Shown piece after piece: positions 57,192-60,844 of a stretch of DNA of 64,000 bases (within the stretch, counting starts at the first letter, position 1; the number at the start of each line of letters is the position of its first letter). The translations under genes were made by a program, and so were the position numbers. The stretch comes from Pantoea agglomerans (GTDB lineage Bacteria; Pseudomonadota; Gammaproteobacteria; Enterobacterales; Enterobacteriaceae). The notes below the pieces were generated by a model. The model saw only the letters and a list, made by a program, of their open reading frames with translations. It did no database searches and was not told the DNA's origin. The stretch spans positions 3,658,001 through 3,722,000 of the forward strand of contig NZ_CP083809.1 of NCBI RefSeq assembly GCF_020149765.1, in the 5' to 3' direction.

Positions 57192-57473
57192 ATGGCGACC
57201 ATAACCACCAGCTTGATCGTTATGCGTTGGGAACTGCTCAGCGCAATCATGATGTTTTTTGCCAGCACCCTTAAAATTAAATTCCGCCAGAGCAGCCATC
57301 ATGTGATGGCCTTTATGTGCGGCGGCATTGGTCTCGGTATGAGCTGCTGGTTTGTGATGGGTCTGCTGGGTATCTCGCTGAGCATGGAAAACGTGCATCA
57401 CTTTATGCTGGTGACCAAAGATACCTTTATTCAGGTGATGAGCCAGACGCCGCCTGACTGGCCAATGCCTTAA
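57192..57473 (+). CDS. yjcB: YjcB family inner-membrane protein (93 aa)
   Basis: Small membrane protein with two hydrophobic segments (about 8-28 and 40-62). MATITTSLIVMRWELLSAIMMFFASTLKIKFRQ and the end SQTPPDWPM match E. coli YjcB. Function unknown. Placed beyond soxS as in E. coli. A CRP site lies in its promoter region and two terminators follow. Confidence 0.9.
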   Translation: MATITTSLIVMRWELLSAIMMFFASTLKIKFRQSSHHVMAFMCGGIGLGMSCWFVMGLLGISLSMENVHHFMLVTKDTFIQVMSQTPPDWPMP

Positions 57474-57654: not shown

Positions 57655-57699
57655 CGTTAGCCAATAAAAAACCCCGCAGCGCGGGGTTTTTTATTTTGC
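57655..57699. terminator. Terminator, second copy of the 45-bp direct repeat
   Basis: Stem AAACCCCGC-A-GCGCGGGGTTT-like with flanking A- and T-runs. It ends the leftward ATP-grasp gene, which stops 9 bp away, and backs up the yjcB terminator. Confidence 0.9.
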
Positions 57700-57707
57700 T
57701 GTGTGAC

Positions 57708-58658
57708 TCAAACTTTCTTCAACAGCGCAGGAATATTGACGTCCTGCACCGAAACGCCCGGTCTCTGCGTGCCGCGGCGATCCTGAATCCACATATCTCC
57801 CATCATCTGATTAAGCCCGCGATCAAGCCCGGTCACCAGACCTGCGCCCGGCGTGAAGGTCAGCTCGCCGAAATAGATGCGGCCTTCATGGATATACCAG
57901 TCCACGCGCACGTAGTCGAAATCGCTCGCCAGCTTCTTGCTCAGATCGAGCGCGTGCTGCAGCGAATCGGCGATTTTCGTCACGTCGAGACCGGTATCGC
58001 GAATCTTATGAAAGGCTTCGGTCAGGTTATTGACATAAAAATTCATCGACAGCTGCGGCTGGCAGCGGTTGTAGATCACCTGCAGCACATATTCAAAGCG
58101 GCCGTCGCGCTTGTTGAACATATGGAACTTGTAATCGATCGGCGCCGTTTTGCCGTCGCCGATATACTGCTCGACCAGAATACGCGGCTTGATATAGCGG
58201 TAGTGGATCTCGCGCGCCTCGTTGGCGAAGTCGGTCTTCAGCCACTTATAGCAGCTGTTGATAATCTGCTGTTTGCGCAGCGCGTCCGGCTCTTCCAGCA
58301 GGATCTCCACCATATTGGAGGCGTGATTCGGCTTGATGACCGTGCCCTTCCAGCTTTGCAGGCTATTCAGCGATGCCGGATCGGTGGACTGGTGCACCAG
58401 CGGAATCAGGTACTCGTTGCCAATCTTCTCGGCAATATAGTCGCGCACTGAATACTTGTCCGACAGGCGGCCGTAGATCTGATAGTCGCCATAGACAAAT
58501 TTGCGGTACAGCACCTTTTCGTTAAACACCTTGGGCTGGCGCAAATTGGGCAATTTTCTGAACTTATGGAAGTAGTAAATGCGGTCCTGGTATGCCCAGG
58601 GCATCTTCTTAATGAAGTACTGCACACTTCTTCTGAGTTCATCTTTCAACTTAAACAT
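57708..58658 (-). CDS. TupA-like ATP-grasp protein (316 aa)
   Basis: Resembles the TupA-like ATP-grasp family of polysaccharide loci, some of whose members attach amino acids or peptides to glycans (teichuronopeptide in alkaliphilic Bacillus). Seen: KVFNEKVLYRKFVYGDYQIY near 43, YGRLSDKYSVRDYIAEKIGNEYLIPLV near 60, WKGTVIKPNHASNM near 102 (lysine that would hold ATP), RILVEQYIGDGKTAPIDYKFHMFN near 158 and the acidic DYVRVDWYI...GRIYFGELTFTPGAGL end. GAGGT places the start at ATG 58658, eight bases after the flippase stop. The pair stands without glycosyltransferases. Confidence 0.8.
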   Translation of the reverse strand: MFKLKDELRRSVQYFIKKMPWAYQDRIYYFHKFRKLPNLRQPKVFNEKVLYRKFVYGDYQIYGRLSDKYSVRDYIAEKIGNEYLIPLVHQSTDPASLNSLQSWKGTVIKPNHASNMVEILLEEPDALRKQQIINSCYKWLKTDFANEAREIHYRYIKPRILVEQYIGDGKTAPIDYKFHMFNKRDGRFEYVLQVIYNRCQPQLSMNFYVNNLTEAFHKIRDTGLDVTKIADSLQHALDLSKKLASDFDYVRVDWYIHEGRIYFGELTFTPGAGLVTGLDRGLNQMMGDMWIQDRRGTQRPGVSVQDVNIPALLKKV

Positions 58659-58666
58659 ATCTGACC

Positions 58667-59923
58667 TCATTTGTAGGTTTTGTAGTTGAGTGAGGAAACC
58701 TGAATTCTTTGAATGACGCCGTTTTTGAAGAAGTAATTCATTACGGTAAGGGACAAGAGTTCCGACACGAAGACGCTCCACGCAGCGCCCATAATGCCGT
58801 AGCCCTGGATCAGCCACCACGAAAGCGGCAGGCTGATCACCATCAGGCAGATGATTTTCTTCAACAGATAGTTGAAACCACCCTCTTTCACCATGTAGCG
58901 GTAGGCTACTGTGCCCATAGCGGAGAAACAGGTTGCCATTGACAACAACGTAATGAGACTTCCTGACTGTGTGTATTCTGAACCGTACAAAGCGATGATG
59001 ATTTTCTCGCCAAACAGCGCGATGACCAGCAGCATCATCAGTGAAACTCCCATGACATAGCCGTTAAGCCGCGCTGCCAGCTTAATAGCCACTTCGCCGC
59101 GTTCCCTGAAGATCTCAGTGAAGCATGAAGTTATGAGCGCCACGGGGATAAAAATCCACGAAGCCGCGATTGTGTTGGCCGCCGCAAACAGCCCGAGGTC
59201 GCTTGCCGACGCAATGCCGGCTAAAAACATCTGCGCGGCTTTCACCTGCACCGAAATAAAAATACTGGAGATCGCCAGCGGCAAACCGGCGTACATCAGA
59301 TAGCGCAGATAGGCGCTGCGCTTCTCCTGCGGCGGAGGAATATCCTGAGTTTCGCGGTAAAAGTTGTATCGTTTGATAGCGTAAGGCACCAGGGTCACGG
59401 CGACGATAGAGAGCGTCAGCCATGCCGGATTCAGGCGCAGCCAGGCGATAACGAAGCTGATGGTGAAGCTCAGCAGCATGCCGAGCGAGTTCGCAACGGT
59501 ATTCAGCCGGGAGGCCAGGCGCGCGTTGTTGTAAACGCTGAAGGTGTCCTGGGTGACAAATACCGAGGCGACGAACGACGCCAGCGTAAACGCCAGAAAG
59601 TTTTGCGGCATGGTAAACCACACCCAGGCCAGCACCGGCACCGAGGTAAGCAGCAGTAAAATCATGCGCAGCGTGCGCGCCACGTTCATCAGGCGCAGCC
59701 CTTTCGGCGCGCTTTTGCTGATCCGCTTGAACAAGATAGTTTCGGTACCGAAGATGGCGACGGTCTGGACCATAGAAAATAAAGAGGTAGAAAACGCCAT
59801 CTGGCCAAATACGGTTGGCCCGAATGATTTCGCCACGTAGGAGGTCACAAATATGACGCCAAAAACCGAGACGATCTTCTCAGACATCATCCAGGCGGCA
59901 TTCGACATTACGCTTAATTTCAT
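58667..59923 (-). CDS. Wzx-type oligosaccharide flippase (418 aa)
   Basis: Polysaccharide biosynthesis (MATE/MOP) protein with about 12 hydrophobic segments, starting MSNAAWMMSEKIVSVFGVIFVTSYVAKSFGPTVFGQMAFSTSL. This group flips undecaprenyl-linked sugars across the inner membrane. AAGGA precedes the ATG. No wzy, wzz or glycosyltransferase gene is beside it; only the ATP-grasp gene follows, 8 bp downstream. Composition is lower in GC than the backbone. Its cargo cannot be deduced. Confidence 0.87.
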   Translation of the reverse strand: MKLSVMSNAAWMMSEKIVSVFGVIFVTSYVAKSFGPTVFGQMAFSTSLFSMVQTVAIFGTETILFKRISKSAPKGLRLMNVARTLRMILLLLTSVPVLAWVWFTMPQNFLAFTLASFVASVFVTQDTFSVYNNARLASRLNTVANSLGMLLSFTISFVIAWLRLNPAWLTLSIVAVTLVPYAIKRYNFYRETQDIPPPQEKRSAYLRYLMYAGLPLAISSIFISVQVKAAQMFLAGIASASDLGLFAAANTIAASWIFIPVALITSCFTEIFRERGEVAIKLAARLNGYVMGVSLMMLLVIALFGEKIIIALYGSEYTQSGSLITLLSMATCFSAMGTVAYRYMVKEGGFNYLLKKIICLMVISLPLSWWLIQGYGIMGAAWSVFVSELLSLTVMNYFFKNGVIQRIQVSSLNYKTYK

Positions 59924-60448
59924 TGACTCATCCTTTGCATTACTTACTTCAACCGCTTCGGTACAACGTCCCTGTAACGAATTAACAAGCGCTCAGTGGG
60001 CCTGGCGTTATTTAAAGATTTCAAACCAGGCTGGTCCGAAAAATGAGAATCAGAACACGATTCGGTGAATATTTTCAGGATAATTCTGATTAAATTTGGC
60101 TCAGAACGGCTAATCTGGAATCGATTTCACGGTGAAAACAGAACCCATTCGCAAGCCATTTCCCTGCGAATTTAGCAAGCACGTTATGCTAAATATCAAA
60201 TGTACGTAGAAATTTTTCGTATTTGGGATGGGAAGAATCTATAACAAAAATCCCTGACCAGGAAGGTGCGCCCATCCGATAAGAATAAAATAAGATTTAT
60301 CCCATGATGATATTTATTCTAAATATCTTAATTTAACCCACGCAATTCTAATCGCGCACTTTAATACTGCATTAATAGTTTATTTACAGTGCCAGATATT
60401 AATACAGTACATCTCATCCATTAATCGATAAGAAAGGTAAGAGCATTT
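59924..60448. other. AT-rich divergent region upstream of the flippase and the HTH gene
   Basis: 525 bp, one of the most AT-rich parts of the window, no gene. It must contain promoters for both flanking units. No JUMPstart/ops element (GGCGGTAG) was seen. Confidence 0.5.
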
Positions 60449-60844
60449 ATGAGAAAGTCACGATATAGCGAAGAGCAAATCACAAATGCCATTAAAGCTT
60501 CTGAATCAGGGGTTAAAGTCAGGGAGATTTGTGACGAGCTGGGGATCTCTGAGGCCACCTTCTATAGCTGGAAAAAGAAATTCTCCGGTCTCTCTTCGGA
60601 AGAAGGAAGAAGAATCAAGGAGTTAGAGGATAAACTACAATCACTTACCCGTGAGCTGCAAATGCTCAACTCAGATAAGGAGATGCTGCAAAGCGTACTG
60701 AAGAACTTCTTTACTACCAATGAGAAACGTCAGGCGGTCAACTTCCTGCAGAGCACTTTCGACATCGGCACGCGCCGCAGCTGCCGCCTGCTCGATATTA
60801 GCCGCAGCGTTTATCACTACCCGTCAGGCTCGGAAAATCGATAA
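60449..60844 (+). CDS. Truncated IS3-type OrfA/OrfB fusion, possible domesticated HTH protein (131 aa)
   Basis: Residues 1-50 form an IS3 OrfA HTH (RYSEEQITNAIKASESGVKVREICDELGISEATFYSWKKKF). Residues 55-90 form a leucine-zipper coiled coil (RRIKELEDKLQSLTRELQMLNSDKEMLQS). Residues 92-126 resemble the first part of OrfB (EKRQAVNFLQ...GTRRSCRLLDISRSVYHY), in the same frame, and then the protein stops. The DDE catalytic domain is missing and no terminal inverted repeats were recognised. GAAAGGTAAGAG precedes ATG 60449. Either a decayed IS or a kept DNA-binding protein divergent from the flippase cassette. Confidence 0.65.
   Translation: MRKSRYSEEQITNAIKASESGVKVREICDELGISEATFYSWKKKFSGLSSEEGRRIKELEDKLQSLTRELQMLNSDKEMLQSVLKNFFTTNEKRQAVNFLQSTFDIGTRRSCRLLDISRSVYHYPSGSENR

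Follow-up and report, generated by a model that had tools for sequence, protein, structure and literature searches.

Why does a gene for a Wzx-type flippase stand directly beside a gene for a predicted amide-forming enzyme, with no glycan cluster around the two? The question arises from a stretch of 64,000 nucleotides of Pantoea agglomerans (RefSeq assembly GCF_020149765.1, contig NZ_CP083809.1, positions 3,658,001 to 3,722,000; hereafter the window), in which a gene for a Wzx-type (PST/MOP) flippase is followed by one for a TupA-like ATP-grasp protein, a predicted amidoligase. We find that the pairing is more than chance, because the gene order is fixed in 57 of 59 related loci, the median ratios of nonsynonymous to synonymous substitution (dN/dS) are low, and a second, diverged pair is present in the same genome.

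A first-pass annotation of the window had described two low-GC genes, 8 bp apart, as a compact two-gene system outside glycan clusters. Open reading frames (ORFs), Pfam matches and base composition bear this description out. The GC fraction is 0.528 for the ATP-grasp gene and 0.527 for the flippase gene versus 0.598 for the whole window. In the window's own genome the nearest other PF01943 match lies ∼148 kb from the pair and the nearest PF00535 match ∼183 kb. The glycosyltransferase, polymerase and sugar-nucleotide genes that adjoin one another in standard O-antigen or exopolysaccharide (EPS) clusters are absent next to the window pair. In PADLOC, neither gene of the pair matches a known defence family at E 0.01.

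The pair has a fixed place at the sox site

When named genomes were searched with a profile, 484 stretches encoding relatives were obtained, and the best 79 were kept as loci: 59 of Erwiniaceae type (assigned by title or flanks), 1 from Pseudomonas and 19 from Xanthomonas/Lysobacterales. The order helix-turn-helix (HTH) gene (−), flippase (+), ATP-grasp (+), yjcB (−) is present in 57 of the 59 Erwiniaceae-type loci; in the two exceptions (L033, L080) the flippase matches are partial and the HTH match is absent. In all 57 fully ordered loci, yjcB lies beyond the pair and is followed by soxS, and soxS/soxR together with yjcB mark a fixed site, here called the sox site. The spacing of 8 bp between flippase and ATP-grasp genes recurs in 49 of these 57 loci. 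Within the window's genus, 60 of 61 genomes have an ATP-grasp match at E 1e-60 or better; the single genome without one measures 1.4 Mb, and copies with stops occur in three others (G460, 2.9 Mb; G472, 2.4 Mb; G475, 3.9 Mb).

In the unit, the HTH gene has a median dN/dS of 0.034, the flippase gene one of 0.061 and the ATP-grasp gene one of 0.052; for comparison, SoxS has 0.061, SoxR 0.069, GhxP 0.072, YjcB 0.130 and EamA 0.172. These ratios (Nei-Gojobori, pairs with 0.2 < pS < 0.62, where pS is the proportion of synonymous differences, loci with partial or broken genes dropped) are rough, the median dS being ∼1. Together, the order in 57 of 59 loci, the presence across the genus and the low dN/dS indicate that the HTH/flippase/ATP-grasp unit is old in the family and is constrained as tightly as its stable neighbours. 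A recent chance insertion is ruled out by the same three results (dN/dS 0.034 to 0.061 for the unit), and a remnant of an O-antigen cluster at the window locus by the fixed sox-site context and the distance from other glycan genes. In two Erwinia loci (L050, L051) the ATP-grasp gene is tandem-duplicated behind the flippase, with copies 58–60% and 67% identical to the window gene.

The pair recurs as a unit on chromosomes and small plasmids

The second stand-alone pair in the window genome lies near pepT, and its proteins are 37% and 32% identical to those of the window pair. When a profile built from the flippases of pairs was searched in 149 genomes of the family, 33 matches at E 1e-30 or better were obtained. 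Among them, 21 score at least 490 bits: 20 of these lie directly beside a PF14305 gene, and the remaining one is truncated by the edge of its contig. A further two matches are fragments of one assembly, one of which adjoins a TupA gene. The contexts of the 20 TupA-adjacent flippases were read from ORF translations, with Pfam run on a subset. Eight are at the sox site, six stand alone elsewhere, one is beside a GT2-like gene, one beside an Acyl_transf_3 gene, and four lie inside an EPS cluster, for one of which Pfam identifies epimerase, WecA-type transferase, Wza, Wzc and glycosyltransferase genes. The first-pass annotation would have been contradicted by relatives in which the pair closes a standard O-antigen cluster. 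At the sox site this is not the case, but the four pairs in an EPS cluster qualify the placement outside such clusters. A Trans_reg_C regulator adjoins all three pairs tested for it (L096, L098, L103).

The pair is also carried by plasmids. Six Klebsiella pneumoniae plasmid records of 9–11 kb in PLSDB, whose gene table is incomplete, have an ATP-grasp gene (40.5% identity) and a flippase gene; three of them were inspected and contain both genes together with replication, insertion sequence (IS), integrase-like and small or hypothetical genes. Pairs are present on Pantoea plasmids, Klebsiella michiganensis plasmids carry the pair with a split or interrupted flippase, and plasmids of Lelliottia and Enterobacter have the ATP-grasp gene directly behind a more distant flippase. 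Close copies of the plasmid unit are found in 4 of 5426 complete Escherichia coli genomes, on plasmids and with the flippase part only. Thus, the flippase/ATP-grasp pair is a recurrent, self-contained unit, carried both by chromosomes and by small plasmids.

Other loci were noted alongside these. In Pseudomonas matsuisoli (L060, 3271–10094) the pair has a close copy flanked by nadC and a Wzy_C-type ligase gene, and the ligase gene is near a gene that reads like pilB. In the window's own genome, two stand-alone triples of GT2, flippase-like and GT2 genes occur outside polysaccharide clusters (L127, 10600–13893; L128, 7354–11074). The middle protein of L128 (508 aa) has no Pfam match at E 1e-5, and the genome search places a PF01943 match of 46.5 bits there. 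On an 8.1 kb E. coli plasmid (L161, 1854–6301), IS1 closely follows a flippase gene whose product is 94.8% identical to that of the Klebsiella plasmids; for a Caps_synth gene on this plasmid, considered as a flippase partner, no claim is made, as an IS1 copy and ∼1.5 kb lie in between.

The distances of the two proteins are correlated, and partners have probably been exchanged

Pairwise distances were compared for 30 of the 38 pairs, of which 15, of different types, entered a second correlation. In these 15 pairs, which include two from the sox site and some others closely related to one another, the correlation between flippase and ATP-grasp distances has r 0.91, and none of 2000 permutations reached this value. 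The sister flippases of L108 and L115/L144 are 50–52% identical, while the ATP-grasp proteins of the same loci share 26–27% and fall in different supported clades. It is thus probable that the partnership was formed anew at least once, a point in favour of function over inertia. Distances and trees were obtained by quick methods, with SH-aLRT support and no bootstrap. Ten near-duplicate loci and two flippase fragments were excluded from the tree; the genes at L053 and L137, as well as the second ATP-grasp gene of L050, were labelled as paired by hand. L113, counted as solo in the tree, is a pair with a decayed flippase.

The ATP-grasp protein matches PF14305 at 109.2 bits (cut-off 25) and has a predicted amide-ligase fold of the ATP-grasp ligase kind. 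K68, K109, E163, K177, R251, D253 and E265 are invariant in 70 sequences; from ATP-grasp biochemistry, we take these to be the conserved lysines, the hinge glutamate and the metal-binding Asp/Glu residues. Residues of the catalytic type, whose lack would have counted against the first-pass annotation, are thus conserved. ATP-grasp profiles find no credible relative in the PDB by sequence. Residues 2–18 form an N-terminal amphipathic helix with a charge of +4. We regard the protein as a putative amidoligase that would catalyze ATP-dependent amide formation.

In the flippase, E15, D126, K356 and E388 are invariant in 30 aligned sequences. There is no NCBIfam match; the flippase profile has a sole solved relative, the Lipid III flippase 9g95 (E 0.0085), and the single sequence finds no credible relative in the PDB. 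Hydropathy gives overlapping segments only, where the PST family is expected to have ∼12–14 transmembrane helices. By family, the protein is of Wzx type (PST) and presumably translocates oligosaccharides linked to undecaprenyl diphosphate.

A proposed role in decorating and exporting lipid-linked glycans

The analysis establishes the gene pair, shows that it is conserved and that it recurs as a unit, and gives a predicted fold and a set of conserved residues. These results are consistent with a self-contained module in which the ATP-grasp protein amidates a lipid-linked glycan built elsewhere and the flippase exports the product. We give this reading a probability of about 0.5. The two genes would be co-transcribed. 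On the cytoplasmic side of the inner membrane, the ATP-grasp protein would use ATP to join an amine, either an amino acid or an amino alcohol, to a carboxylate through an amide bond; the carboxylate would most likely be that of a uronic acid residue on an undecaprenyl-linked oligosaccharide made by other, chromosomal genes. The flippase would then act as the private exporter of the decorated unit, which the native Wzx would handle poorly, and the surface polymer or lipid-linked glycan would carry amide groups instead of free carboxylates. An amino acid or peptide may be what is attached and exported, as initially suggested for the window. In the Erwiniaceae, the divergently encoded, transposase-derived HTH protein would likely regulate the pair. 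Two carboxyl-bearing units of the host are plausible candidate acceptors: lipid II/III of the enterobacterial common antigen (ECA), whose carboxyl sugar is ManNAcA, and a colanic/stewartan-like EPS unit with its uronic acid. An ECA-like cluster and a Wza/Wzc-type EPS cluster near galF are recognisable in the host from translations, and each contains one of the five other PF01943 matches of the genome.

Several observations weigh against this reading. The PF01943 match of the flippase is marginal (28.4 bits versus a cut-off of 28.2). Ten of the 33 flippase matches are weaker and have no adjacent TupA gene and, because the profile was built from pairs, the split in scores arises partly by construction. 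Among the ten is a GT2/flippase/GT2 triple of the window's own genome, and the flippase of the L127 triple is 36% identical to that of the window. Paired flippases do not form one clade and neither do paired ATP-grasp proteins, which counts in part, and the L108 ATP-grasp protein, on which the inferred exchange of partners draws, is a long branch in the tree. All 19 Xanthomonas/Lysobacterales loci have a TupA gene with no flippase nearby, and many Enterobacterales loci have likewise solo TupA genes; five of these (L090, L094, L097, L117, L147) are convergent with a histidine kinase/response regulator pair next to an RND pump gene, judging from translations. Thus, TupA does not always need a flippase partner. 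In the Xanthomonas/Lysobacterales loci (L061, L063–L079, L081) the ATP-grasp relative is 57–63% identical and the flippase was not found within the stretch fetched; of three Xanthomonas genomes searched whole for the flippase, two gave no match and one a 29-bit match only.

A broader and more tentative idea is that the pair belongs to a plug-in class of surface-remodelling systems. Such systems would combine a cytoplasmic modifier, exchangeable among TupA subfamilies and perhaps glycosyltransferases, with a Wzx-type flippase of their own, and would travel on plasmids down to 9–11 kb. They might act on the lipid-linked unit of any Enterobacterales host, e.g., ECA lipid II/III, and would have become fixed in the core genome of the Erwiniaceae under a domesticated transposase-derived regulator.

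Three alternatives have to be weighed against the decorate-and-export reading. The one that survives best, although we consider it unlikely, is that the genes are accessory to one host polysaccharide, i.e., a relocated part of an EPS or O-antigen pathway that decorates that polymer alone. The 4 of 20 related pairs within a WecA-type/Wza/Wzc/glycosyltransferase EPS cluster fit this explanation, as does the Wza/Wzc-type cluster near galF in the window's genome. However, the EPS and ECA-like clusters each hold a PF01943 match, and these pathways therefore have their own flippase; moreover, EPS and O-antigen clusters usually differ between species, whereas in 57 of 59 loci the pair keeps its place at the sox site.

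Somewhat less probable still is a split counterpart of MprF, in which the ATP-grasp protein aminoacylates a membrane lipid or a lipid A precursor and the flippase moves the aminoacyl lipid outward, altering surface charge. The absence of glycosyltransferases at many sites, the positively charged amphipathic helix, and some solo TupA genes with two-component and RND pump genes next to them would agree with such a function; so would an ATP-grasp fold amidoligase gene that is reported to adjoin mcr-8.6 in a K. michiganensis genomic island (PMC12708576). Yet the flippase belongs to the polysaccharide (PST) branch, with relatives also in EPS and O-antigen clusters, and the TupA-like activity reported in PMC11800379 targets a sugar carboxylate. 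Finally, the genes might travel together without cooperating, the flippase exporting its own unit and the ATP-grasp protein having a separate soluble role. Each gene does occur without the other, and flippases of one subfamily are partnered by TupA proteins of unrelated subfamilies. We nevertheless consider this explanation improbable: of the 21 strong flippase matches, 20 adjoin TupA, the genes have short gaps or overlap, the distance correlation is 0.91, and both genes are on the same 9–11 kb plasmids.

If the decorate-and-export reading is true, the pair would be a portable two-gene means to neutralise or recharge surface sugars without owning their biosynthetic pathway, present both in the core genome of a Pantoea-type genus and on small plasmids of enteric bacteria. 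It sharpens the question of what orphan flippases and TupA-like genes do in enterobacterial genomes, and raises that of whether a private flippase for a decorated unit can meet the specificity of Wzx.

The HTH gene and the flanking regions

The features of the locus are collected in Table 1. The ORF of the ATP-grasp gene as called mechanically opens further upstream, at a GTG at 58820, and another in-frame ATG would give a 4-bp overlap with the flippase stop. The hairpin toward yjcB, recognised by reading the sequence directly, likely closes the flippase/ATP-grasp unit as a terminator.

Table 1. Coordinates of the pair and of the features around it in the window
Feature	Position	Strand	Remarks
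yjcB, conserved neighbour outside the system	57192..57473	+	PF15940, 123.6 bits
Hairpin and T-runs between ATP-grasp gene and yjcB, likely terminator	57660..57707		inverted repeat AAAAAACCCCGC..GCGGGGTTTTTT
TupA-like ATP-grasp protein (predicted amidoligase), second gene of the pair	57708..58658	−	316 aa; start ATG 58658
Wzx-type (PST/MOP) flippase, first gene of the pair	58667..59923	−	418 aa; PF01943 match
Gap between the divergent HTH and flippase genes	59924..60448		525 bp
Transposase-derived HTH protein, candidate regulator	60449..60844	+	131 aa; PF01527, 73.1 bits

The HTH protein consists of an IS3 OrfA HTH followed by an OrfB N-terminus, and its gene covers only positions 1–126 of the 369 of NF033516; past position 126, i.e., for the DDE catalytic domain, there is no match at the gene. 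The loss of the catalytic domain, the sequence constraint and the fixed position fit a domesticated transposase fragment that would serve as a DNA-binding regulator. The gene also matches a PADLOC model named DrmC; we interpret this model as an IS3 OrfA-like sequence of the PADLOC library. A linkage of the HTH gene to the pair, which the first-pass annotation had proposed to search for, holds for the sox site (57 of 59 loci) and not for pairs elsewhere, such as that of P. matsuisoli.

The GC fraction is 0.472 in the HTH gene and 0.373 in the gap between it and the flippase, which spans 518–558 bp across the 55 loci where its length was taken. When 25 of these loci are aligned, conserved blocks lie on the HTH side of the gap (∼60230–60448 in the window). 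Among these blocks upstream of the HTH gene is TCCCATGATGATATTT in the window, which, judged by eye, could open a short leader ORF in some species, not all. Rfam finds no known RNA family at gathering score in the region upstream of the flippase.

Comparison with known systems

The first-pass annotation knew of no system of just these two genes, and the literature searched agrees: it contains no description of an orphan flippase with an amidoligase and no paper combining “ATP-grasp” and “wzx”, and the available part of PMC12419801, which mentions both ATP-grasp and a flippase, describes no such pair. The nearest enzymatic parallel is the C-terminal amidoligase of Cj1438, which in the HS:2 capsule of Campylobacter jejuni is reported to amidate glucuronic acid at its C6 carboxylate (PMC11800379). 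Both proteins have a TupA-like ATP-grasp fold, predicted in the case of the window protein; in contrast to the window protein, which is separate, paired with a flippase and outside a glycan cluster, the Cj1438 domain is fused to a GT2 glycosyltransferase within the capsule cluster.

The window flippase has the PF01943 and profile matches in common with Wzx/PST flippases such as WzxE, the lipid III flippase; unlike standard Wzx/PST loci, it has no adjacent Wzy, glycosyltransferase or sugar genes and is coupled to an ATP-grasp gene. In its way of working the pair would resemble MprF, where a synthase and a flippase act jointly on a lipid-linked substrate, but the window system is made of two proteins with predicted ATP-grasp chemistry, and the tRNA-dependent LPG synthase domain (PF09924) is not among the Pfam matches of either protein. 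Phage Gtr serotype-conversion cassettes are a parallel in being compact mobile units that alter a host-built glycan; they do so with a small flippase and glycosyltransferases, whereas the pair would combine amide chemistry with a Wzx-type flippase. The HTH gene, finally, shares the OrfA HTH and the OrfB N-terminus with IS3 family transposases but lacks their DDE domain, stands at a fixed site and is under purifying selection; if the reading is right, it would offer a tidy case of transposase domestication beside genes that the HTH protein possibly controls.
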